35,796 bases of DNA from contig JADGEC010000022.1 in the NCBI GenBank assembly GCA_016744575.1, forward strand, positions 1 through 35,796, read 5' to 3'. The DNA is from Sulfurimonadaceae bacterium. GTDB taxonomy: Bacteria > Campylobacterota > Campylobacteria > Campylobacterales > Sulfurimonadaceae. The translations under genes were made by a program, and so were the position numbers. Under the pieces are notes generated by a model. That model worked only from the letters and a program-made list of their open reading frames with translations. It searched no databases and had not been told where the DNA came from. Of the stretch, positions 3,790 to 24,110 are shown piece by piece; position 1 is the first letter of the stretch; each line of letters opens with the position of its first letter.

Positions 3790-4014
3790 CGGTGTCCTTC
3801 ATATACTATTAAGATAGGTAAACAAGATTATATATAGTTTGATATTGTTATATAATATTTATTATGATTTGCTTAAGGCAAGAAGTCATTGATTACTATA
3901 TAAGTTTTTTTAAAGAGTGATTCTCTTTGTGAGTAGAGGTGATGTCGTTTTCCGTAGATTATCAGGCCCATCGCTAAAACACTTGTCTGAGTGCATGAGA
4001 ATCTATAAATAAGT

Positions 4015-4020
4015 TATACT
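4015..4020 (+). promoter_or_regulatory. Candidate -10 box for the beta-propeller gene
   Basis: TATACT lies 33 bases before the ATG at 4054 in an AT-rich region. No convincing -35 hexamer is visible, which is usual for the housekeeping sigma factor of Campylobacterota. A second candidate, TATAAA at 4004-4009, is close by. Inferred from motif match only. Confidence 0.35.
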
Positions 4021-4053
4021 GCTGAAATATTTATTTGTTTCGTCAGGATACCG

Positions 4054-5010
4054 ATGTTCATTTCACGACTCTTTTTGATCGTCTCTTTATTGCTCTTGTC
4101 ACTCAACGCTAGAGATATCAAGCCTCTTTTTCGTCTGCACGCTACTGGACTGGTGACAGACTTCGTGATAGACGGTTTTGAACTCTATGCATCTACCGAT
4201 ATGGGTAGCATCGATATCTTTGATATCAGGACACGAAAGATGATCAGGCAGATAACACTGGAGCCTTTAAAAGACTTTAAAGGAGAGCTCATCCCGGCAA
4301 AGGTCTTCAGTGTCGATCGGCATAATGGAAAGACTTTGATCGTCAGTGCTAGTGCGGATGGTTACCGTGATGTATGGGTCCATGATGGAAGAGAGTTGCA
4401 GAACATCATCACCCCCGCCGATAAGCTTGTCATCCAGGAAGCCCGTTTTATCGATGATGAGAAAATCCTCTTTGGGACGCTGGATTACGATGTGATCTTG
4501 TATGATACCCAGGAGAAATATCAAGCCTATAAACATCATGTGGCGCAGGGTTCTTTTTCCGACATAGACCTCAGTGCGGATCATACCAGGATGATCACAG
4601 CGGACGAGAGTGGAGAGGTGACACTGAGTGATGTCAAGACATCTGAGGTCTTAGAGGTGTTCTCAACGCAAAATGTCGATAAGGTCTATAAGATAGCATA
4701 CCGTAATGGTACGGTGATCACTGCAGGACAGGACAGACGAGTCGGTGTCTACCCAAAAGATGGAGAGCCGTATCATATAAAAAGTGATTTTCTTGTCTAC
4801 TGTGCGGGACTAAGCCCTGATGGTTCTATCGGTGTCTATGCCAGCGGTGTGGATAATGATCTGCAGACCTTTGATGTGAGAAATGGTAAGAAGCGAGACA
4901 GACTCATAGGCCACTTCGCCACTTTGACGACCATCCATTTTCTAAATGAGAATGAACTCTTCAGCGCTGGTGATGAGAACGATATCTTCTTCTGGAGCCT
5001 AAGAGAGTAA
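4054..5010 (+). CDS. Periplasmic WD40-like beta-propeller (NapL-like)
   Basis: 318 residues with a signal peptide (hydrophobic core about 5-18, cleavage likely after LNA near residue 19) and a body of repeated blades of the WD40/YVTN type. Blade-like units include the T-DMGSIDIFDIRTRK segment (about 49-63) and the later pattern GQDRRVGVY, SGVDNDLQTFDV and SAGDENDIFFWSL at the C-terminus. The overall shape and length resemble NapL, a periplasmic propeller found in the nap nitrate-reductase operon of Campylobacterota. No other nap gene is in this window, so the symbol is withheld. It could equally be a generic propeller scaffold. It converges on the DUF445 gene with a 23-bp gap. Ribosome site CAGGA precedes the ATG. 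Confidence 0.65.
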   Translation: MFISRLFLIVSLLLLSLNARDIKPLFRLHATGLVTDFVIDGFELYASTDMGSIDIFDIRTRKMIRQITLEPLKDFKGELIPAKVFSVDRHNGKTLIVSASADGYRDVWVHDGRELQNIITPADKLVIQEARFIDDEKILFGTLDYDVILYDTQEKYQAYKHHVAQGSFSDIDLSADHTRMITADESGEVTLSDVKTSEVLEVFSTQNVDKVYKIAYRNGTVITAGQDRRVGVYPKDGEPYHIKSDFLVYCAGLSPDGSIGVYASGVDNDLQTFDVRNGKKRDRLIGHFATLTTIHFLNENELFSAGDENDIFFWSLRE

Positions 5011-5033: not shown

Positions 5034-8000
5034 TCAATACGAGAACGCTACCGGTATCCCGAAGACCGCTCCATATCCTCCATAGAGGATGAGCCGGTTA
5101 AAATAGACTTTTGCAAAGGAGTTGAGCATCTCTTCGAGTTCACTTGGATGCATGGCATTGATCTCGCGTTCGATGACCTCTTTGAAATCTATGGAACCGA
5201 TAAGCCCATCCATGTTAGCGATGACTGTGTCATAGGTGGCATCGAACCCATTGTCGAGTAGATACTCTTTAAGCCGTGTATCGATAAGACCGTTGAGTGA
5301 ACGAAGTGTCGTTGCCATAAGTGGGATTATCACGTGTGCGATCGAATCCCGGAACGCATCATCACCCAGAAGTGTAGTGATGGTCTGCTCAAGTGACTGC
5401 TGGAGTCTGCTCTCGTCTACTAAAGAAGCTATTCCTTCGCTATCGAACCCATCAAGTAATATAGTGACTAGGTGTTGTTCGAAAAGTGCATATCCTGATG
5501 AGTCAAAGAGCTGCTGAGAACTAAAGCGTATCTGTTCTTCAATATCCTGATGTGTCAGCCCTGCAAGTAAGGTATTGAGTGTGTTATGGCTGAAAAACTC
5601 ATTGCGGGTGTGCTGGATGAACGAGGAGAGTTGCTTTACGAGGATGTCGTGCTCTTTTTTAAGGGACTCTATTATCTCCGCTCTGGCAAAGTCGATCTCC
5701 TCATCTACCGTTTCGAGTATCACTCTTACGGAATGAAACTCCATGACCTCTAGCTGTTCACCGAGTGTAGCGGTATAGGTGTCTTCGACCATCATCACAC
5801 CGATCCTCCCTATTCCAGAAGCGACATCGGCATGACTTAGGACCTCATTGACGATGGGGGTGAATGCGTGAAGGTCAAGTAGTTCGTCTTTGATCCCAAA
5901 GCTACTTAATTCTTTCTCCTTAAGCTCTTCAAGGAAATGATGGGTGACAGACTCGACCTCTGCTTTACGCTCATTCAAAAAGATCGGCATCTCTTTGTCG
6001 ATCAAGATCGTGATAAAACGCCTGATATCGCCAAAGACGCCGCTGGCTCTAAAGAGTGCGTTGGTCGCAAAACTGTTGTGTGATTTGACTGCTCGCCTGA
6101 TCTCGGTGATGATGCTTCTTTTCTCATCTTGAAGCTGTTCGATGATCCCGTCGAGACCGTGATCGAAAAGAAGGCGCAGGTTCTCCTCGATGGTCTCGGT
6201 CAATGCACCATTGAACATCTCACCGATGTTTTTATCTGTCTTTACGGTCTCCTCTATTAACATACTCTGAAGAAAGTCGATGACTTCATGTTGTACACGT
6301 TCACTTTGGAGACGGCTTACGACATACTCACTTAGACGAGTACTAAAGAGATCTTGCATCGGTGGTGTCAATAGAGAACTGATGGGACGGTCCTGCCACT
6401 GCTCGAGAATGGGTTTGCCCAGTGTATCGATCATCTCCAGGAGAAACTCTTTCTCTTCAAGTCGTTGATGAGCATAAGTCAGTGTATGGTCGACTCCGAT
6501 GGTGATCAGTCGGTCTGCCAGCTCTGAGACCTCCGTTGGCAGTGCATGCTCAAAAGTCTGTGTGCCATGATCATCAAGCCACTGCTGCGCACGCGCTGTA
6601 AGACCATTTTCTAGACGTCTTTGTCCTCTCTCTCTGAGGGTCTTTCGGTTGGAGGACTCACGAAAATAGGATAGATCTGTGCCATTGGCAGTAAGAAGTG
6701 CTTTCTCTGCCATAGCTTCTGTATCGAACTGCTTGGCGGCCATGCCATATGCAGAGAAGAATATCTCCGTAGAGAAGTATTCAGCGTGGCGATCGAGAAA
6801 AGCCTCAGCGACTCGGTAGTCATCGGCTGTGATATAGGCTTTGAGCGTATCGATAAGGTGAGGTCTGAGTGTGATGATCTTATCGTGGATAGCATCCTGT
6901 GTCAGCAGGGTCTCATCCACGAACTTGGACATGTTCTTCGCAAAGAAAGGTTTTCGCTTCCCTACGATCCCGGGGGTGAAGGGGATGTTCATACCAAGTA
7001 GACTTTTTCGCTCATAAGGTCTGAAAAGCATCTTTAACGCAAGCCAGTTAGTCAAGACCCCTGTTGCACCATAGACAATAGGGATGGCGGCGAAAAGATA
7101 AGGACCGCTCAGGGCACCAGTCAGTTGCTGTACACCATAGAGTACGCCTCCGACACCAGCACCCAGACCGGCACCTAACCAGGTGATAGGACCGAGTTCT
7201 GCTCCCATGAACTCTTCGACCTGCTCTTGTAGTTTGGTCGGTCCCATTGCGAGTAGTTCGTTTTTGACTGTCATGGAGACATTTTTTTCCAGAAGTAGGG
7301 GAAGGTTGTCATTGATACCCATGACTGCGATATCACTCAGGCGTTTGGCACTGCTCTCATGTCCGGCGACTATGTCGAAGAGTGTATGTAGATGTGTTGT
7401 CTCGGCCTTAAGTGAGAACGCAGATTTTTGTTCCTGCAAGAGATGCTGTATCTTAGGACGGATGAAGGTGAGTGTCTCTTTGTCCAACAATGTCGAAAGG
7501 GGCAGCCTTTGCACACGCTTTTGCAGACGTTCCGTAAAGAGTGTCTGCATCTGTGCCTCATGTTTAGAGAGCATCTCCAGGACTGTTTTAGGACTTTTTT
7601 CGTTTATAAAGCTTCCAAGTGGTCGTTGGATCGTCTTGCGTATCTGAGAGGCCGCAAGCTTTTTCAACTGTCTGTTCTTTTGAGCATCTTTAAGCCAGAG
7701 ACTTAACCTTTGTGGCTCGAGCAGTGATTCGACTTGCTCAAGAAGCTGTCCTTGCCAACTGCTGTTAAAGAGTGATGAGAGCGGCCGAGCGAAGAGCTCA
7801 CCGAACATTAGGCGTTCGATGAAAGGGGCGGCTCTGGGAAGGTTGAGCTGTATAAGTCTTGCGACTAGCAGTGGTGTGAGCCAGTTTCGTGATGTAAGTT
7901 CCGTGATGACATGGCCGATGCTTCGTTTACTGATGGCATCGAGAACGAGGTCAAGTCCTTTGCGGACGTGGGCTTCTCTGGAACTCTCATCATCAAGTAT

Positions 8001-9119
8001 CCCGGTAAGCCGGTCTATTAAGCGAAAACGTTCTGTGACCTTACCCAGAAAGACTGCTTTGAAGGAGTATTTCATCTTACCAAGCGGACCGCCGCTTTTT
8101 AACGAAGCATCGATAAGGCGTTCTATGAACACCTCCAGATCACCGCTGTTGGCTTCAAGCCAGTCGATCATCAGTGCAAGTAGACGAGGCAGATGCGTCT
8201 CGACGAGACCTACTATCTCCTGTGTGGTCTGCTCGCTAAGAAGATCGCTAAGCGGTTCATCGACACCTTTGAGGCTTTCGAGTATCGCCGCGGAGAGATG
8301 GGTGAGTTCCTCTCTGCCCTGAGGGCTCTCCATCAAGAGAAGAAAGCGTCCCATGAGGTGTTGAGAGAGTGCTGTCGTGCGCTCTTCTCCCAAGCGATCC
8401 TGGATACTTTTGGTGAATAGCATCTCCAGAAGGGCCGGGATAAGGGTGTCCAGTCCTAAAGAGTCTCTGACATCATATAACATCGTCTCAAAAGCAAGAG
8501 GGTCTATACTTCGCAGCAGCATGTCAAGCAGGGTCTCAAGCTCTCCATCTAGCAAGATCATCATCCGTTTTGTTAAGAGCTTTTCGATGCTGATGTCACT
8601 GTGACGCAACTGTTCCATCATCTCAGGTGTCAAAGCGATTATAGTCTTATAGAGATAGGAGAAGAGGGCTTGACTCAACTCCTTTTGTAGGTCTTCAGGC
8701 AGCAGTGCATCGATATTGATGTGTGCGGCAGTGCGCTCTAACAAAGCATCGATAAGATCAGCTTCCATGGGCTCAAGAAAATCGAGTACAGCATCAAGCG
8801 TCTCTTTTAGCCCCTCGATGTCGCCGAGTCTAGTGTCGGGGAAACGCTTATAGAGAGCTTGTCTAAGAAGGTATTCCACAGCTTTTTGCAGCTCTGTCTT
8901 AAAAGCGTCGCTGGAGAACTCATGCTCTAGTGTGGCATGGTTGATAAGGTCACGTTCGACCAGTTTACTGATATTCTCCACAAACTCCTCAAAATTACTT
9001 GCGAGTACGCCCCCTCCGACGATGGGGTACTTCTTAAAGAGCATCTTGATAGCCATAGTATTGGTGATATAGCCGGTGATACCGCCTGCGACCAGATTGG
9101 ATAGGAGTTGTGTAAGCAT
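5034..9119 (-). CDS. Giant tandem DUF445 membrane protein
   Basis: 1361 residues, far longer than usual DUF445 proteins (about 400-450 residues). The N-terminus shows the family signature, a first membrane helix with GGITGYITNTMAIKMLFKKY (about residues 12-31). The signature recurs near the middle with a second membrane region (about 645-700) containing TGVLTNWLALKMLFRPY, followed by PFTPGIVGKRK, the most conserved family block. The C-terminus ends in a third hydrophobic helix (about 1338-1361). Between these lie long helical, probably coiled-coil, soluble stretches. So two DUF445 modules are joined in one chain with several hundred residues of helical linker. DUF445 proteins (YheB-like) are envelope proteins without a firmly known function. 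The frame is unbroken over 4 kb, so the gene is intact. The ATG lies 80 bp downstream of the rubredoxin gene on the same strand. Confidence 0.85.
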   Translation of the reverse strand: MLTQLLSNLVAGGITGYITNTMAIKMLFKKYPIVGGGVLASNFEEFVENISKLVERDLINHATLEHEFSSDAFKTELQKAVEYLLRQALYKRFPDTRLGDIEGLKETLDAVLDFLEPMEADLIDALLERTAAHINIDALLPEDLQKELSQALFSYLYKTIIALTPEMMEQLRHSDISIEKLLTKRMMILLDGELETLLDMLLRSIDPLAFETMLYDVRDSLGLDTLIPALLEMLFTKSIQDRLGEERTTALSQHLMGRFLLLMESPQGREELTHLSAAILESLKGVDEPLSDLLSEQTTQEIVGLVETHLPRLLALMIDWLEANSGDLEVFIERLIDASLKSGGPLGKMKYSFKAVFLGKVTERFRLIDRLTGILDDESSREAHVRKGLDLVLDAISKRSIGHVITELTSRNWLTPLLVARLIQLNLPRAAPFIERLMFGELFARPLSSLFNSSWQGQLLEQVESLLEPQRLSLWLKDAQKNRQLKKLAASQIRKTIQRPLGSFINEKSPKTVLEMLSKHEAQMQTLFTERLQKRVQRLPLSTLLDKETLTFIRPKIQHLLQEQKSAFSLKAETTHLHTLFDIVAGHESSAKRLSDIAVMGINDNLPLLLEKNVSMTVKNELLAMGPTKLQEQVEEFMGAELGPITWLGAGLGAGVGGVLYGVQQLTGALSGPYLFAAIPIVYGATGVLTNWLALKMLFRPYERKSLLGMNIPFTPGIVGKRKPFFAKNMSKFVDETLLTQDAIHDKIITLRPHLIDTLKAYITADDYRVAEAFLDRHAEYFSTEIFFSAYGMAAKQFDTEAMAEKALLTANGTDLSYFRESSNRKTLRERGQRRLENGLTARAQQWLDDHGTQTFEHALPTEVSELADRLITIGVDHTLTYAHQRLEEKEFLLEMIDTLGKPILEQWQDRPISSLLTPPMQDLFSTRLSEYVVSRLQSERVQHEVIDFLQSMLIEETVKTDKNIGEMFNGALTETIEENLRLLFDHGLDGIIEQLQDEKRSIITEIRRAVKSHNSFATNALFRASGVFGDIRRFITILIDKEMPIFLNERKAEVESVTHHFLEELKEKELSSFGIKDELLDLHAFTPIVNEVLSHADVASGIGRIGVMMVEDTYTATLGEQLEVMEFHSVRVILETVDEEIDFARAEIIESLKKEHDILVKQLSSFIQHTRNEFFSHNTLNTLLAGLTHQDIEEQIRFSSQQLFDSSGYALFEQHLVTILLDGFDSEGIASLVDESRLQQSLEQTITTLLGDDAFRDSIAHVIIPLMATTLRSLNGLIDTRLKEYLLDNGFDATYDTVIANMDGLIGSIDFKEVIEREINAMHPSELEEMLNSFAKVYFNRLILYGGYGAVFGIPVAFSY
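9063..9076. other. Placeholder for N-terminal membrane helix coding of DUF445 protein
   Basis: Not a separate gene: this short stretch encodes the glycine-rich start of the first membrane helix of the DUF445 protein. It is marked because it matches the mid-protein helix coded near 7040-7100 and shows where the two modules begin. Confidence 0.3.
9063..9076. other. Module boundary note (DUF445 copy 1)
   Basis: Same location as the preceding note. The corresponding start of copy 2 is around 7040-7100. Confidence 0.1.
9063..9076. other. Duplicate of the preceding note; ignore
   Basis: No additional information. Confidence 0.01.
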
Positions 9120-9162
9120 GCGTGATTATAGCTATGCAAAGATATGAAAAGCTTGTAGCGTA

Positions 9163-9176
9163 TCACCCAAGGGTGA
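9163..9176 (-). terminator. Small hairpin after rubredoxin gene
   Basis: TCACCC AA GGGTGA is a perfect 6-bp inverted repeat in the 80-bp gap between the rubredoxin gene and the DUF445 gene, both on the minus strand. There is no T-run directly after it on the minus strand, so it may only weaken read-through or stabilise the short rubredoxin message. Confidence 0.3.
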
Positions 9177-9199
9177 AGTCGCGTCAGATAGTACGGATT

Positions 9200-9364
9200 T
9201 TACTCATCCATTGGCTCGAAGGACTCTTTAGGTTCAAAACAGTCAGGACATTCCCAGTCCTCAGGAAGCTCTTCAAAGGGTGTACCCGGAGCTATGTCGT
9301 TTTCCGGGTCACCGATGGCTGGATCATAGATATAACCACAAGAGGGACATTCGTAGCGCCTCAT
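9200..9364 (-). CDS. Rubredoxin
   Basis: Small electron-transfer protein that holds one iron in four cysteines. The two CxxC knuckles are visible as [12 protein letters not shown] and WECPDCFEP, with the family stretch [20 protein letters not shown] between them. I chose the ATG at 9364 (54 residues), not the upstream ATG at 9391. An AAGGAG ribosome site sits 6-7 bases before 9364, and MRRYECP matches the normal rubredoxin N-terminus. Rubredoxins in microaerobic bacteria often serve in oxidative-stress defence or as electron donors; the partner is not visible here. The gene is divergent from the T2SS operon and may be co-transcribed with the DUF445 gene downstream. Confidence 0.93.
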
Positions 9365-9544
9365 CTCACTCTCCTTTATGGGGACGATCATCTACAGAGT
9401 CTAGAGCATGGATGATTAAAGAGATATAAGATCTATTGATAGATGTAGGCAGTTAGACCTTGATAGAAGCTAGATTAGGAATGAGATGTGCTTTTATGTG
9501 ATAATCGTATGGTAAGTGTTAACTGTTTATTTAGTTTGAGAGAC

Positions 9545-9550
9545 TATAAT
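9545..9550 (+). promoter_or_regulatory. Candidate -10 box of the T2SS operon
   Basis: A consensus TATAAT lies 35 bases before the gspG start, in an AT-rich region with no clear -35 box. It is the best promoter candidate for the 11-kb secretion operon. A ribosome site AAAGGG follows at 9573-9578. Confidence 0.5.
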
Positions 9551-9584
9551 CATAGATTAAATCATCTGCATAAAGGGTAAATGA

Positions 9585-10049
9585 ATGATGTATAAAAATA
9601 GCGATCGATCGAGAGAGGCTTTCAAAGCCTCAAGAGCAGGTTTCTCATTGATCGAACTTATGATCGTCATCGTCATACTTGGTCTCCTGGCATCATTGGT
9701 AGTGCCTAATATCATGGGCAAAGGGGAAGAGGCGAAGCAGAAGCTTGTCTGTGTCCAGATGAAGAATATCGCTGAGACATTGAAGATGTTCAAGCTTGAT
9801 AACGGTATCTACCCGACTACTGAGGAAGGCCTGGAGTCTTTGACAGCTAACCCGGATGCCTCAAAGTATCCGTTCTACTCCAAGTCAGGTTATTTTGAGG
9901 ATGAGAAGATGCCTCTGGACTCATGGAGAAACGGCTTTGTCTATATCAATAAAGATGGACGCTTCGATCTGGTCTCGATGGGTGCTGATCGTAAAGAGGG
10001 CGGCAAGGAAGAGTATGCCGATATCCGTTTTAGTGAGTGTAAGTTCTAA
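9585..10049 (+). CDS. gspG: T2SS major pseudopilin GspG
   Basis: 154-residue major pseudopilin, the main subunit of the short periplasmic pseudopilus that pushes substrates through the secretin. The prepilin motif AGFSLIELMIVIVILGLLAS (residues 22-41) shows Gly at -1, Phe at +1 and the essential Glu at +5. It continues as the hydrophobic N-terminal helix. The NIMGKGEEAKQK segment and the YPTTEEGL and DSWRNGFVYINKDGRFDLVSMGADRKEGG regions match GspG, the last being the calcium-binding loop of the family. Start: ATG 9585 or 9588 (both close to the ribosome site); the ATG at 9581 runs into a stop at once. First gene of the operon. Confidence 0.95.
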   Translation: MMYKNSDRSREAFKASRAGFSLIELMIVIVILGLLASLVVPNIMGKGEEAKQKLVCVQMKNIAETLKMFKLDNGIYPTTEEGLESLTANPDASKYPFYSKSGYFEDEKMPLDSWRNGFVYINKDGRFDLVSMGADRKEGGKEEYADIRFSECKF

Positions 10050-19534: not shown

Positions 19535-20002
19535 ATGTCGCATCGTGATGAGTCTGCTGGTTTTACACTGATAGAGGTGATGATAGCCGTCATGATAATC
19601 AGTGTGGTCATCGCGGCTCTATTACAGCTTTTTGCTACCAATACGCGGCTCTTTAGTACACTTGAGCAGAAGATCAGACTCTCTACAGAGGGAAGCCTCT
19701 TACTTGGAGTCGAGAACATGGGTTTTGAGAAAGAGAGTATTCATCTTGACGAGCTGGTAAAGGATTTCAGGATAGACGATGATCTGCGAAGAAGACTCAA
19801 AGACACCAAGGCTGAGGTGTTCTATCAGGAGTTGATGGTCATGGACAGTGCGGACATCATGGAAGAGGTAGAGGAGTTGGCGGAAGAGGATAATCGTACC
19901 GTCACCGATACTGGTACCGGTGCGGTCCGACTTGAGATTGGACGTACCGGTCTGCTCGTCGGTGATATACAGGCTTCGTTCATGCGGTTACGTCTACAAT
20001 GA
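19535..20002 (+). CDS. gspI: T2SS minor pseudopilin, GspI-like
   Basis: 155-residue pseudopilin. Prepilin motif AGFTLIEVMIAVMIISVVIA (residues 8-27) with Gly at -1 and Glu at +5; the IEVM-A version is typical of GspI. GspI nucleates the tip complex with J and K. The body is short, with an acidic stretch (about 112-124). A good ribosome site TAGGAGAG precedes the ATG. The gap of 32 bases after gspE is the largest inside the operon. The ORF overlaps gspJ by 4 bases. Confidence 0.8.
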   Translation: MSHRDESAGFTLIEVMIAVMIISVVIAALLQLFATNTRLFSTLEQKIRLSTEGSLLLGVENMGFEKESIHLDELVKDFRIDDDLRRRLKDTKAEVFYQELMVMDSADIMEEVEELAEEDNRTVTDTGTGAVRLEIGRTGLLVGDIQASFMRLRLQ

Positions 20003-20508
20003 GACCGTCTGGAAGCACAAGGGCCTTTACTCTGCTTGAGATGCTGATCGCCATTGTGATCTTTACCCTCATCTCTGTTTATCTTTATAAGAGTCTTGCG
20101 ACACTGAACAGCACCAACAGGTTTTATGGCGAGAAACTACGCAGTATCTCTCATGACCATAAGATCCTCAAGACCATCTATCTGGATCTCTCTCTCGCAG
20201 TCATCCGCTCTGTCTTTGTTGTCAGTCAGGATGAGCATTTTGATGTCATATTGATGCAGACAAAAAACTCGGTACATCGAAGGACTATGCCCTATGTCGC
20301 ATATCTGGTACTGGAGAACAAGTTCTACCGCATTGAGTCCTCACAACAGTTGAGCTACCCTTTTAATGAGGATCAGGAGATGATCGTAGACGAACTAGGC
20401 GAGATGGAGCACTTTAGGCTCTATAGCAGTAAGACGCATTTTCTGCTCGATTATGAACCAAAAGACGAAGACCCGCAGTTGATGAAGATACGGGGTCTTA
20501 ACTACTGA
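19999..20508 (+). CDS. gspJ: T2SS minor pseudopilin, GspJ-like
   Basis: 169-residue pseudopilin and last gene of the T2SS operon. The prepilin stretch reads AFTLLEMLIAIVIFTLISV (from residue 9): Glu at +5 is kept, but the residue before the cut is Ala instead of the usual Gly. It is thus processed with an Ala at -1 if at all. The LLEMLIAIVIF pattern is typical of GspJ, a tip-complex subunit with I and K. The last 44 codons are present a second time at 22949-23080, in a broken copy. Confidence 0.8.
   Translation: MRPSGSTRAFTLLEMLIAIVIFTLISVYLYKSLATLNSTNRFYGEKLRSISHDHKILKTIYLDLSLAVIRSVFVVSQDEHFDVILMQTKNSVHRRTMPYVAYLVLENKFYRIESSQQLSYPFNEDQEMIVDELGEMEHFRLYSSKTHFLLDYEPKDEDPQLMKIRGLNY
20375..20506. 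repeat. Direct repeat, copy 1 (3' end of gspJ)
   Basis: 132 bases that recur in the same orientation at 22949-23080 with two differences (C20466 versus T23040, G20475 versus A23049). Weaker similarity continues upstream to about 20332 with the same spacing (offset 2574). The match ends inside the gspJ stop codon (TGA here, TAA in the copy). The repeats flank the PKD lipoprotein gene. Confidence 0.95.
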
Positions 20509-20686
20509 CGTATAAAGCTCAATAGGTCAATGAAGTATTTTTAAGATAGACAATTTGACCAATAGTACTTATTGAAGTCTGGTCAAATATCTGATAGATG
20601 TGCAGTTACATGTATATTCTTTTAGTCATCAGTGTCTTCTTGATCCAATAAGTGGTGACAGTTACTTTTACTGGATCTCTATATAC
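20509..20686. other. Non-coding gap between gspJ and PKD gene
   Basis: 178 bases between the converging ends of gspJ and the PKD lipoprotein gene. It contains the inverted repeat ATTTGACC (20553-20560) and GGTCAAAT (20581-20588) with a 20-base loop, which may be the transcription stop for one or both genes. An 85-codon plus-strand frame (20600-20857) is mostly antisense to the PKD gene and I do not accept it. Confidence 0.5.
20553..20588. terminator. Inverted repeat between converging genes
   Basis: 8-bp perfect arms ATTTGACC and GGTCAAAT around a 20-base loop that itself contains AATAGTACTTATT, a partly self-complementary stretch. No T-run follows. Location between two converging stops is the main reason to call it a terminator. 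It could also be an element boundary of the inserted segment. Confidence 0.35.
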
Positions 20687-22603
20687 TTACTTAATAAGTC
20701 CACTGCTCAAAAGAGCATCTTCTGTCTGCATGATAGTGATCATGTATGGATCACTATCAATAGTCCCATCATTTACTATCAATTCAACTACATAGTCACC
20801 TTTGGAGCTTGTAGCGATATAAGTACTTCCCGCGTCTCCATCAGCTCCATCATATAGCTCCTGAGTACCTACAGGTGATGAGACAAGTCTCCATCTGTAG
20901 GTAAGTTCATCTCCATCAGGGTCATAACTATCGTCAGCATAAAGATATACATTCTCATCAGAGTTGTATACATCAGGTCCAGCATCAGCTATAGGAGGAG
21001 TATTTGTATAAGGATCAGTAACATAGATAGCTAAGCTCTCTGCGTTACTATTAGCAGTTCCATCATTAGCTACGACCTTGATGATATAGTCACCTCCGAC
21101 ATCTGCTGTGAAACTCGTATAAGAAGTGCTTGTCTGGGAAGTCAATGTCGTGAGCTTACTGGCTGCGGGCTTTTTAGTAATCGTCCAAGTGTATTTTAAC
21201 GGGTCGTTATCAGCATCTGAAGCAATGGCTTCAATGTCTGTATCATCGCCTACATAGATATCAGATTTAGTATAAACATATGGATCTACAAATCTTATCT
21301 CTTCCATAACAGGTGCCGAGTTAGTCTTGGAGGCTTTTATCTTCATAGAGTCAGCTGTACTGGAGACACCATGGCTGTCCTTGACAGTCAGCTTGATGAT
21401 ATAGTCGCCTGCTATATCAGGTGTCAGGCCTGCTTTAGAGGATGTCCAGTCTGTGAGATCTGCACTACTTCCCGTGGGCTTGAAAGTGATGAACCAACTG
21501 TAAGTGAGCTTGTCTTCATCGGCATCAGAACTTTTGGTACCATCTAGCGTGACCTTCGTACCTACTTGGATGTTTTTGTCTGCTCCCGCATTAGCTTTAG
21601 GAGCAGAGTTTGAGGTCGATACTGTGACGTTGATCGTATCGGAACTACTATTGACAGTGCCATCATTTACGACAAGAGTCATCCTATAGGTACCATCTTT
21701 ATCAGCAGTAAAAGTAGGTTTGACAGCAGTTGGGTTAGAAAGTGTGGCACTACTACCTCCGGGCTTGGAAGTCATAGTCCAACGAAATGTGATGTCATCT
21801 CCATTGGCATCAGTACTTTTGCTTCCATCAAGTGTGATCTTGGAACCGGTGTTCTTGTTTTGGTCTGATCCTGCTTTGGCAATGGGCTTAGCGTTGGATG
21901 TAGTGGCAGTGATACGTACTTTATCGACACTACTATCAAGGCTTCCATCATTGACGGTCAGTTCGATATCATAGATCCCGTCTTTGTCAGCAGAGAAGGA
22001 TGGAGTAGCACTGGTGGTACTCGTTAGTGAGGCACTGCTACCGTTTGGCTTAGATGCGAGATTCCAACTGTAAGTCAGTCTATCATTGTTGGCATCAGAA
22101 GAGTCACTTCCGTCAAGCGTGACTTTAGTCCCTTTGTTGATGTTCTGGTCAGACCCGGCGTCGGCATTTGGTCTGATATTTCCAGTAGAAGCGATGATGA
22201 CTACGGTATCTGTCTTGGTCTCTTGACCAGAGTTGACAGTCAATAAGACTTCATAGTCACCGTCTAGGTCTGCAGTGAAACGTGGTGCGACTGAAGTCTC
22301 ACCAGCCAAGACAGCGCTACTTCCTCCTGGTGTGGATTTGAATTCCCAATAGTATTCAAGTCTATTATCTGATGCTTGACTTTCACCACCATCAAGGGTG
22401 ACCGAAGAGGGTGTCAGAACGTTCTGGTCTGGACCTGCATCAGCAGTCACACCGACTACTACCTCGACAGGATCAGGAGCAGGGTCATTGGAGTCATCTA
22501 CTGGAGGATTTTCACCGCCGCTGCTGCTTCCGCCGCAACCTGTGAAAGCTAAGAGGAGGGTAAGCAATAAAGCGCTGAAGAGTGATTTTGTCTTGTTCTG
22601 CAT
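20687..22603 (-). CDS. Lipoprotein with about six PKD/Ig-like repeats
   Basis: 638 residues. Lipoprotein signal peptide: hydrophobic core about 9-20 and lipobox FTGC with Cys23, followed by a Gly/Ser- and Pro/Asp-rich spacer (24-46). Then come about six repeats of roughly 90 residues of the PKD/REJ type. Each begins near ADAGxDQN and has TLDGS-S-D-(N/D)-D-L-Y-W, K-PxGSSA-L, P-F-AD-DG-Y-L-V-NDG. The last two (from about residue 425 and 530) are more diverged, with PYVY and TPPIADAGPD starts. Such domains make rigid rods in adhesins and secreted enzymes, and Asp-rich loops suggest calcium binding. No enzyme domain is present. The gene lies between the two gspJ-end repeats and next to the T2SS, which can export folded lipoproteins, so it is a candidate substrate (inference). 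Ribosome site AAGGA precedes the ATG. Confidence 0.85.
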   Translation of the reverse strand: MQNKTKSLFSALLLTLLLAFTGCGGSSSGGENPPVDDSNDPAPDPVEVVVGVTADAGPDQNVLTPSSVTLDGGESQASDNRLEYYWEFKSTPGGSSAVLAGETSVAPRFTADLDGDYEVLLTVNSGQETKTDTVVIIASTGNIRPNADAGSDQNINKGTKVTLDGSDSSDANNDRLTYSWNLASKPNGSSASLTSTTSATPSFSADKDGIYDIELTVNDGSLDSSVDKVRITATTSNAKPIAKAGSDQNKNTGSKITLDGSKSTDANGDDITFRWTMTSKPGGSSATLSNPTAVKPTFTADKDGTYRMTLVVNDGTVNSSSDTINVTVSTSNSAPKANAGADKNIQVGTKVTLDGTKSSDADEDKLTYSWFITFKPTGSSADLTDWTSSKAGLTPDIAGDYIIKLTVKDSHGVSSTADSMKIKASKTNSAPVMEEIRFVDPYVYTKSDIYVGDDTDIEAIASDADNDPLKYTWTITKKPAASKLTTLTSQTSTSYTSFTADVGGDYIIKVVANDGTANSNAESLAIYVTDPYTNTPPIADAGPDVYNSDENVYLYADDSYDPDGDELTYRWRLVSSPVGTQELYDGADGDAGSTYIATSSKGDYVVELIVNDGTIDSDPYMITIMQTEDALLSSGLIK

Positions 22604-22632
22604 GGATGAGTCCTTATTATATTAGATCATCG

Positions 22633-22650
22633 TATTGATTTGTATCAATA
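22633..22650. promoter_or_regulatory. 7-bp dyad upstream of the PKD lipoprotein gene
   Basis: TATTGAT, 4 bases, ATCAATA: perfect inverted repeat 30 bases upstream of the start codon. It is either a leader hairpin or an operator. Unassigned. Confidence 0.3.
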
Positions 22651-22683
22651 GGAATAAGTTGCATCTTGAGAGGGGGCTCTCCC

Positions 22684-22727
22684 TTATCCTAAAATGTCAT
22701 AGCGAGAAGCTAGACGAGATAGGATAA
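22684..22727. repeat. Nested inverted repeat
   Basis: Outer arms TTATCCT and AGGATAA (7 bp, perfect) enclose a second stem TAGC/GCTA with loop GAGAA. An A-run follows on the plus strand (22726-22730), which is a T-run at the start of the minus-strand reading. It might be a terminator for something transcribed leftward from the right, a structured RNA, or the trace of a mobile-element end. I cannot decide among these. Confidence 0.3.
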
Positions 22728-22905
22728 AAACTTACAATAATGTACATCAATTACGTTATAAAATGTGTCATATATGTAGTAAATCGATATATTTATTATC
22801 ATTATGAGTATTTTTGTAATTTAGTACAATATTAATAAACATAAATAGTTTTTAAATATTATAAAACTGTAATATCGATAGTGCTTTTATGATGAAGGCT
22901 TCTTT

Positions 22906-23083
22906 ATTGAGTCCTCACCGTGTTTTAGTTATTCTTTCAATGAAGACTAGGAGATGATCGTAGACGAACTAGGCGAGATGGAGCACTTTAGGCTCTATAG
23001 CAGTAAGACGCATTTTCTGCTCGATTATGAACCAAAAGATGAAGACCCACAGTTGATGAAGATACGGGGTCTTAACTACTAAA
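22906..23083 (+). pseudogene. Broken second copy of the gspJ 3' end
   Basis: Remnant that aligns with gspJ 20332-20509 without gaps. Its first part translates as IESSPCFSYSFNED followed by TAG, against IESSQQLSYPFNEDQ in gspJ. In that part many changes are transitions that leave the residue unchanged (AGC/AGT, TAC/TAT, TTT/TTC, GAG/GAA, GAT/GAC) and the CAG of gspJ is TAG. From 22949 on it is nearly identical to gspJ up to the stop. There is no pseudopilin N-terminus, so the copy cannot make a working protein. The mosaic pattern suggests an older diverged homolog partly overwritten by, or recombined with, the intact gene. Confidence 0.85.
22949..23080. repeat. Direct repeat, copy 2
   Basis: Partner of 20375-20506 (130 of 132 bases identical, same orientation). 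With copy 1 it brackets the PKD lipoprotein gene and its AT-rich upstream region, about 2.4 kb. Confidence 0.95.
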
Positions 23084-23167
23084 AGCCACATTCACACCCT
23101 TTTATTACGATTTGTTTTAATTTCTTATGCTAATCCTTCCTTGTTATATTTATATTTCTTATGCACC

Positions 23168-23186
23168 GTTACAATGCTTATGTAAC
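23168..23186. promoter_or_regulatory. Dyad upstream of the KCG-repeat peptide gene
   Basis: GTTACA, 7 bases, TGTAAC: perfect 6-bp inverted repeat about 67 bases before the start. Spacing and symmetry would suit a dimeric metal- or stress-responsive repressor, but no regulator gene is near and the match is short. Confidence 0.35.
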
Positions 23187-23252
23187 AAGCATCACAGACA
23201 TCCAGGTCATAAGGATGTTAGAATGTCTGTAAATAAAGAGAAAAAAGGAAGA

Positions 23253-23564
23253 ATGATGAAAAAGATGAACTTGATGGCGCTACTTGTTGGAGCAGCACTC
23301 TTCACAGGTCTTGGAGCTACCTCTGCATTTGCAGCAGACGGTAAATGTGGTGCAGGAAAATGCGGTAGTTCAAAACCTGCCAAGTGCGGTGCCGATAAAG
23401 CTAAAGATATGACCGCTGGCAAGTGCGGTGCTGACAAAGCTAAAGAGATGACTGCAGGAAAATGCGGCGCTGATAAAGCTAAAGAGAAGGCTGCAGGCAA
23501 GTGCGGTGCAGATAAAGCAAAAAAAGCTGTCAAAGGCAAGTGCGGCGCAGGTAAGTGTGGTTGA
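23253..23564 (+). CDS. Secreted KCG-repeat peptide, HvfA-like RiPP precursor candidate
   Basis: 103 residues from ATG 23253. ATG 23256 is better spaced from the GGA at 23247-23249 and may be the true start; the longer frame from 23127 lacks a ribosome site and places an unsuitable stretch before the signal peptide. A clear Sec signal peptide ends at AFA-AD (residues 25-29). The mature part is almost only repeats: eight Lys-Cys-Gly motifs, cysteines at 32, 37, 45, 58, 71, 84, 97 and 102. The five from 45 to 97 are exactly 13 residues apart (unit AGKCGADKAKEMT), and GKCGAGKCG occurs at both ends. Repeat units use different synonymous codons, so the pattern is held by selection. It resembles HvfA/bufferin-type precursors, whose EGKCG motifs are modified to bind copper; here the residue before GKCG is Ala, Asp or Lys rather than Glu. 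Without modification it could be a metal-binding buffer peptide. The DoxX gene follows. Confidence 0.75.
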   Translation: MMKKMNLMALLVGAALFTGLGATSAFAADGKCGAGKCGSSKPAKCGADKAKDMTAGKCGADKAKEMTAGKCGADKAKEKAAGKCGADKAKKAVKGKCGAGKCG

Positions 23565-23568
23565 TCGT

Positions 23569-23590
23569 TCGGGCAGTCTTCACTGCCTGA
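23569..23590 (+). terminator. Hairpin between peptide gene and DoxX gene
   Basis: Stem of 9 pairs (one G-T) with loop CTTC: TCGGGCAGT and ACTGCCTGA. It starts 4 bases after the peptide stop codon and has no T-run behind it. More likely a message-stabilising or partial stop that lets the peptide be made in excess over the DoxX protein, as in many small-peptide operons. It could also be a weak terminator. Confidence 0.5.
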
Positions 23591-23666
23591 TCTGATGGAG
23601 TATCTTTGAATATCTGATTGGGTCTTGAGAGATATTAATATCTATGATATTTACAGGAGGTGTGTT

Positions 23667-24110
23667 ATGTTTGTCAAATGTGAGAAGATCGACGCACTGT
23701 TAAATAAAGGTCAAGACGTCGCTTTACTACTACTGCGATCTATCCTTGCCTATGGGTTTTTCAGTCCGGCTATGCATAAGTGGGATGATATCGGGGCGGT
23801 AGCTGAGTGGTTTGGCTCTATGGGTATTCCGCTTCCTACGCTGAACGCTTATATGGCAGCATCGACTGAACTTGCCGGTGTGGTCTTGTTGACTATCGGT
23901 CTGGCAGTACGCTATATCAGTGTTCCATTGATGTTTGTGATGGTCGTCGCGATCACTACCGTGCATTTGGCTAACGGCTTTAGCGCCGGAGACAATGGTT
24001 TTGAGATCCCGCTTTACTATATGCTGATGCTTTTTGTCCTTGTCACCTTTGGCGGCGGCAGGTTCAGTGTCGATGGCTACTTAGCTAAGAAAAAAGAGAC
24101 AGAAGTCTAA
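23667..24110 (+). CDS. DoxX-family membrane protein
   Basis: 147 residues from the ATG at 23667, which has a perfect AGGAGG ribosome site 6 bases upstream. A longer TTG-start version is unlikely. Four hydrophobic helices are visible (about residues 15-33, 52-75, 79-99 and 108-128). DoxX motifs include LLLLRSILAYGFFSPAMHKW near the start and the later FGGGRFSVDGYL. DoxX-family proteins are small membrane proteins linked to thiol and redox metabolism; in HvfABCD loci one of them (HvfD) accompanies the modified peptide. Following a KCG-repeat peptide makes that role plausible, but DUF692 and DUF2063 partner genes are absent here. Confidence 0.85.
   Translation: MFVKCEKIDALLNKGQDVALLLLRSILAYGFFSPAMHKWDDIGAVAEWFGSMGIPLPTLNAYMAASTELAGVVLLTIGLAVRYISVPLMFVMVVAITTVHLANGFSAGDNGFEIPLYYMLMLFVLVTFGGGRFSVDGYLAKKKETEV

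Follow-up and report, generated by a model that had tools for sequence, protein, structure and literature searches.

When linear DNA is integrated into the Escherichia coli chromosome under selection, part of the target can be duplicated. In the study by Amarir-Bouhram et al. (2011; PMC3240628), partial duplications are reported in 56 of 60 selected integrants, with lengths of 109-950 bp in the 14 sequenced clones, and they are attributed to recircularisation of the DNA followed by a single crossover. This mechanism is known from experiments. Here we describe a naturally occurring locus in a Sulfurimonadaceae bacterium (GenBank assembly GCA_016744575.1, hereafter G000), in which the 3′ end of a gspJ-like minor pseudopilin gene is present twice, on either side of a gene for a PKD-repeat lipoprotein. 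The arrangement is well explained by insertion with duplication through homologous recombination. The window—the whole stretch of 35,796 nucleotides that was analysed—is a complete contig (JADGEC010000022.1; G000:C3) of a 228-contig draft genome of 3.59 Mb (3,591,442 bases) with a contamination of 3.63%. What is new is that the case is natural, with its crossover tract still readable, and that PKD lipoprotein genes are bracketed by repeats; we found no description of this locus or pattern in the open-licence literature. The parts of the locus are as follows.

19999-20508, plus strand: intact gspJ-like minor pseudopilin gene with stop codon TGA, at which the run of type II secretion genes ends; Pfam N_methyl.
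20332-20374, plus strand: copy 1, diverged block, 13 differences from copy 2.
20375-20506, plus strand: copy 1, core, 2 differences from copy 2, exact over 91 bases.
20509-20686, no strand: AT-rich insert DNA in the gap between gspJ and the PKD gene, GC 0.32, without a match to the native downstream DNA.
20687-22603, minus strand: PKD-repeat lipoprotein gene, 638 aa, GC 0.45, convergent to gspJ; Pfam K319L-like_PKD (5 stretches) and PKD_4.
22604-22905, no strand: AT-rich insert DNA upstream of the PKD gene, GC 0.27.
22906-22948, plus strand: copy 2, diverged gspJ block, with the change to TAG at its end.
22949-23083, plus strand: copy 2, core and ancestral stop codon TAA (orphan gspJ end).
23084-24110, plus strand: native downstream region, with a gene for a small KCG-repeat protein (23256-23564) and then a DoxX/HvfX gene (to 24110); it adjoins gspJ at the empty site.

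The locus resembles the Campbell-type insertion-duplication of the E. coli integrants (PMC3240628) in that part of a gene end occurs twice (175 bp in our case), the two copies enclose foreign DNA, and the truncated one has an illegitimate joint. A full and a truncated gspJ copy stand in direct order around the insert, and the corresponding empty site is known. Unlike the integrants, our locus is natural and unselected, its copies are diverged alleles with a virtually identical core, and it contains no plasmid backbone. Homology-facilitated illegitimate recombination (HFIR), known from naturally competent bacteria, likewise combines a homology anchor at one end with an illegitimate joint at the other and involves no integrase. 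HFIR typically deletes about 1 kb of recipient DNA, according to PMC3240628, whereas here no native DNA was lost and a segment was duplicated. Simple HFIR does not fit, because a native deletion would be expected and the left of copy 2 should not carry a third allele; the left end of copy 2, where the micro-homology of HFIR (3-10 bp) would sit, is blurred by divergence. The displacement of gene ends in type VI secretion system (T6SS)/Rhs loci (PMC5361080) shares the insertion of a new end with cargo and the orphaning of the old part downstream, but here the end comes from a part of a secretion machine, the protein is hardly altered, and no toxin or immunity gene is present. Finally, in the merodiploids made by transformation (Johnston et al. 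2013, PMC3784515), a repeat-bordered duplication also arises through recombination with incoming DNA, but those duplications span about 100-900 kb, as compared to 175 bp. Two further candidates were rejected: silent-cassette pilin variation requires several silent copies, and the genome has one partial copy; for a diversity-generating retroelement, only 3 of the 13 block differences fall on copy-1 adenines.

The direct repeat (20332-20506 and 22906-23080) comprises 175 bases at 91% identity, with a spacing of 2574. The match between the two flanks of the PKD gene has an E value of 5.5e-67, which rules out chance, and the gspJ-end sequence is found at only these two places in G000. An earlier note on this DNA had reported that 20375-20506 recurs at 22949-23080 with two changes and that a diverged match continues in register back to 22906, and the alignment bears out both statements. 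The two differences in the 132-base core (20466 C/T and 20475 G/A) are synonymous, and the longest exact run between the copies covers 91 bases (20375-20465). In the block, by contrast, 13 of 43 bases differ, 10 of them by transitions. The note had described these changes as largely transitions that keep the amino acids; the predominance of transitions and the change of CAG to TAG are correct, while the amino acids are kept in only half of the changed codons (5 of the 10 synonymous, 4 missense, and 1 CAG to TAG). Upstream of 22906, the similarity between the copies at the DNA level does not exceed that of shuffled controls, and the copy 2 frame reads DEGFFIESS where the intact protein has ENKFYRIESS.

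Could selective constraint explain the contrast between block and core? The nearest relative is a contig from the same genus (JAUWRZ010000317.1; locus L033, taken as G001:C71). Copy 1 differs from L033 at 8 of 43 block positions and 23 of 132 core positions, which represents equal divergence (p 0.82), whereas the two copies differ from each other at 13 of 43 and 2 of 132 positions, respectively (p 1.8e-7). Since block and core are equally diverged from L033 but not between the copies, constraint fails to explain the contrast, while a crossover or conversion tract does. Moreover, when the mismatches were permuted, a 91-base run was reached in 0 of 2000 permutations (p 0.0005). This clustering and the contrast between block and core together uphold the proposal of the earlier note that the last part of copy 2 was converted or recombined with the intact gene. 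In the three-way comparison of the block, 7 sites are changed in copy 2 only, 4 in copy 1 only, and 2 in L033 only, while all three sequences differ at 2; in the core, 23 sites set both copies apart from L033, and there are 2 copy-2 changes. The left 43 bases of copy 2 are about as distant from this gspJ as the gene of another species. By these site patterns, the block is an old separate allele, as three separate lineages would produce, and the core is shared, made alike in both copies; it must have been recombined or converted.

The relative also provides the empty site: downstream of gspJ, L033 continues with the KCG-repeat and DoxX/HvfX genes, without a PKD gene. The alignment of L033 on the gspJ side stops at window position 20506, and that on the downstream side begins at 22906 (85% and 80% identity, respectively); both overlap on one single gspJ end, which is contiguous through to the KCG gene. 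An outgroup genome of a different genus (G013) carries gspJ, the KCG-repeat peptide and DoxX in the same order, again without the PKD gene. Because the arrangement without the PKD gene is found in both G001 and the outgroup, it is the ancestral state and the insertion is derived. The view of the PKD gene and the AT-rich DNA as an insertion is thereby supported, by the very comparison with a close relative that the earlier note had proposed. Among the genomes compared, no second strain carrying the insertion was seen.

Which of the two copies keeps the native end? The stop codon TAA and the DNA downstream of it are common to L033 and copy 2, but not to copy 1, in which the changed stop TGA is followed by DNA without a match to the native downstream region. 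No native DNA was lost at the insertion, as the window keeps both gspJ and the downstream genes aligned to L033. Copy 2 is, by these alignments, a hybrid in which the right part represents the ancestral end of gspJ and only the left 43 bases are a diverged allele. The interpretation of copy 2 as the end of an older, diverged gspJ thus holds for the left 43 bases and not for the right part, and the accompanying idea that the insert restored the 3′ end of gspJ does not stand as a simple restoring of a broken gene. A computed recombination between the copies removes 2574 bp and leaves an identical GspJ protein, predicting that the segment could be precisely removed through the 91-base exact repeats, with restoration of the empty site.

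No recombinase-sized open reading frame (ORF) is present in 20509-22905, where the PKD gene is the sole long ORF (the small overlapping ORFs were not run against families). Apart from the PKD gene, every ORF of 80 aa or more in this DNA is an overlapping or antisense frame, in agreement with the earlier remark that no integrase or transposase is visible. The second, partly outdated copy of the gspJ end left behind the inserted gene suggests that DNA of a relative came in through ordinary recombination, and not with a mobile element supplying its own enzyme.

How, then, did the insertion arise? As the best explanation, to which we give an even chance, we propose that DNA from a related bacterium formed a circle and entered gspJ through one crossover. 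The DNA of a related donor, consisting of a gspJ 3′ end, the PKD lipoprotein gene and AT-rich DNA, would have entered the cell. The fragment would then have closed into a circle, in which the AT-rich end was joined to the cut gspJ piece near 22890-22906, and this circle would have integrated through a single RecA-type crossover inside gspJ. An integration of this kind produces precisely a full gene, an insert and a gene end, all in direct order. In the resulting structure, copy 1 would be the native gspJ up to the crossover, followed by the donor stop codon and the insert, and copy 2 would be the donor gspJ block, followed by the native core, stop codon and downstream genes. Heteroduplex repair at the crossover, or a later exchange between the copies, may have equalised the 132-base core. 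A single crossover with a diverged donor predicts donor sequence at the left of copy 2, donor sequence at the right of copy 1 and an identical tract between them, and this matches the observed block, stop codon and core. Further support comes from the other partial gene copies around unrelated cargo in G000, described below, and from one ComEC-family match in G000, a putative competence gene, although such a match does not by itself imply competence.

Several points weigh against this single-crossover integration. No donor sequence was found in the searched loci, viral contigs, plasmids and phages, and both the donor and the circle are unseen. Recombination with a gspJ that differs at 30% of its sites, as the block does, is difficult; it would require a donor core of greater similarity than the block, or one that was overwritten completely. 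An older local duplication with later conversion yields the same pattern. The mosaic is mostly missing from the other repeat pairs (permutation p 0.09-0.75 in 7 of 8 tested, and 0.014 for an ogt-like pair), so that it is not a general signature. Lastly, the assembly is a 228-contig draft, which may be at fault at the joints.

The main rival assumes that the insertion-duplication is old in this lineage, whatever its route, that copy 2 then degenerated as a pseudogene, and that gene conversion between the two copies has recently refreshed the 132-base core alone. We consider this possible, if unlikely. As expected for decay, 5 of the 7 copy-2-only block changes are C to T and one of them makes a stop; close direct repeats are also expected to exchange, and the core is shared within the lineage (23 sites). 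In conflict with it, the block is nearly star-like with L033 (2 L033-only sites), which places the duplication at about the age of the split from G001, and since G001 and G013 lack the insertion, a precise loss in G001 would be needed. It is a good deal less probable that gspJ alleles of co-occurring strains were stitched together in the draft assembly. The number of contigs and the contamination would permit such a chimera, and a strain switch would show at the boundary of block and core, but the longest exact repeat is merely 91 bases and the order of both flanks agrees with one contig of the relative. Furthermore, the join of AT-rich DNA to block needs no shared sequence, and thus probably exists in the DNA itself.

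If the complete arrangement was taken over by homologous replacement from a strain already possessing it, the mosaic would mark the limit of the donor DNA and the original event would lie elsewhere. Both edges of the core could indeed be recombination edges, but this account merely shifts the origin to an unseen strain and uses a single native core twice, and we rate it slightly below the chimera. Many phages and islands target the 3′ ends of genes and bring a replacement end with them. A site-specific mobile element of this type at the gspJ 3′ end, with its recombinase elsewhere or lost, agrees with the gene end on both sides, the core that brackets the cargo and the convergent cargo gene. 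It is nevertheless the least probable of these explanations: the insert holds no ORF of 80 aa or more besides the PKD gene and overlapping or antisense frames, and the gspJ homology reaches to the left of the core, whereas identity should start at the crossover without homology upstream. In addition, the other bracketed loci use different target genes, no 8-base junction word is common to more than 2 of 9 loci, and the viral contigs contain no match.

We searched for the origin of the insert in several ways. Viral contigs searched with the PKD protein, the gspJ protein and a 42-base core pattern yielded no relatives, and the search of plasmids and phages with the PKD protein gave distant PKD proteins only, all with <60% identity (59 plasmid and 3 phage records). 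The insert flanks showed no alignment beyond the best of 100 shuffles with the native DNA, the PKD locus of G001 or a paralog on C81. As for a donor of the diverged block, 11 of the 14 loci examined gave a gspJ-like protein, and by eye none was nearer than L033. The closest PKD protein in G001 (59% identity over residues 5-345 and 43% over residues 428-630) is encoded between rpsB and bcp (gene names by eye). A move of the PKD gene from that spot was rejected, as G000 has rpsB at the end of a contig and bcp next to an integrase-like ORF, and a PKD gene is absent from that place; given identities this low, such a move is not claimable. The integrase-like ORF itself (L088, 340-1134, on G000:C73) occupies, by eye, the place next to bcp where G001 carries its PKD gene. 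In a separate observation, an intergenic stretch of about 100 bases (L065, ~440-553) has more than 10 similar places across G000 contigs and represents a dispersed intergenic repeat family.

Is this locus the only one of its kind? A repeat survey of G000, covering 1,148,948 of its 3,591,442 bases in 70 pieces, found 32 dispersed repeat pairs, mostly paralogs or internal repeats. From these pairs, five loci with a partial gene copy around other genes were picked by eye, with gene names likewise assigned by eye.

Window: gspJ end around the PKD gene.
L068: VF530-like 77-aa gene beside a PKD lipoprotein.
L118 (G000:C16), 766-1132 and 2517-2882: gltD-like 3′ end around a 418-aa ORF, in a layout like that of the window.
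L125 (G000:C6), 8366-8733: ogt-like 5′ end fused to the 3′ end of the neighbouring gene.
L122: 5′ end of a gene.

The fusion at L125 is what a tandem duplication would leave as its new joint, yet different genes lie on its two sides. When the empty sites of these other loci were sought in G001, the search located the VF530-like gene alone, close to the end of a contig. The absence of partial-gene brackets among the 6 repeat pairs from 400,000 bases of two relatives speaks against generality, but no more than 1.7 would be expected there at the G000 rate (P(0) 0.18). A further sample of 475,743 bases, in part selected, yielded 17 pairs, of which a striking one surrounds a PKD lipoprotein gene in G163, of another genus (L073, on G163:C30). 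There (3930-4660 and 7699-9986), a 2.3-kb segment has a deletion-compressed counterpart across the lipoprotein gene; relatives of G163 gave matches at this locus that point neither way. Elsewhere, in G025 (L089), a 210-base noncoding direct repeat with 93% identity (4316-4525 and 8745-8954) lies at the 3′ sides of two genes.

For 698 ORFs with a length of 300 aa or more, we compared the 1.5 kb to the left with the 1.5 kb to the right, in a test devised after the first cases had been seen and with the window among the PKD genes. Direct flank repeats were found at 6 of 12 PKD-like lipoprotein genes, a small sample, and at 14 of 686 others (p 2e-7), a comparison set that includes core genes, so that a bias between core and accessory genes is uncontrolled. 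Without the window, 5 of 11 PKD-type genes are bracketed (p 3.6e-6). In G000, the counts are 4 of 5 PKD genes and 8 of 401 others; outside G000, they are 2 of 7 and 6 of 285 (p 0.013), which is weak alone. ORFs less than 300 bases from the end of a piece, including the PKD gene of G013 on L070, were left out, while another lipoprotein, a second one on L074, has a flank repeat but falls below the PKD threshold and is counted among the 14. Dispersed repeats are not supported as the cause of the short flank repeats, as each short pair had no match but itself in the sampled DNA; a 50-base flank pair at C197 is also palindromic, and a 361-base gene end in L073 has weaker relatives. No junction motif is common to the bracketed loci. 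It is conceivable, but on balance doubtful, that PKD lipoprotein genes in this sulfur-bacterial family are “naked” cassettes, which insert repeatedly beside unrelated genes without an element-encoded recombinase and leave flank duplications of 50-360 bp.

The genes around the insertion are recognisable to different degrees. The product of 19999-20508 matches the NCBIfam gspJ model with an E value of 5.6e-7 and 29.6 bits, under the equivalog cut-off of 64.85, and the name gspJ is supported by its position after GspD-, GspE- and prepilin-like genes. Among the upstream type II secretion genes, GspG and GspD exceed their NCBIfam cut-offs, and GspE and GspF match under theirs. The PKD lipoprotein contains, as judged by eye, a lipobox-like LAFTGCGG. 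On the other side of the insert, the small KCG protein, with its 39-base repeat units, is encoded directly before a DoxX-type gene that passes the cut-off for HvfX, a maturation protein of copper-binding ribosomally synthesised and post-translationally modified peptides (RiPPs), and the same order is found in G001 and G013. The KCG-repeat product may be the precursor of a copper-binding peptide, with no further maturation gene recognised beside it.

This locus is a natural and readable record of a gene added beside a conserved machine, in which the machine was left unbroken and no mobile-element enzyme took part. The crossover region can still be recognised as a near-identical 132-base core flanked by diverged edges. 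Should more genomes show the same bracketing of PKD genes, then repeat-bracketed insertion would be a measurable route for the spread of surface-protein genes, and one that is cleanly reversible by recombination.

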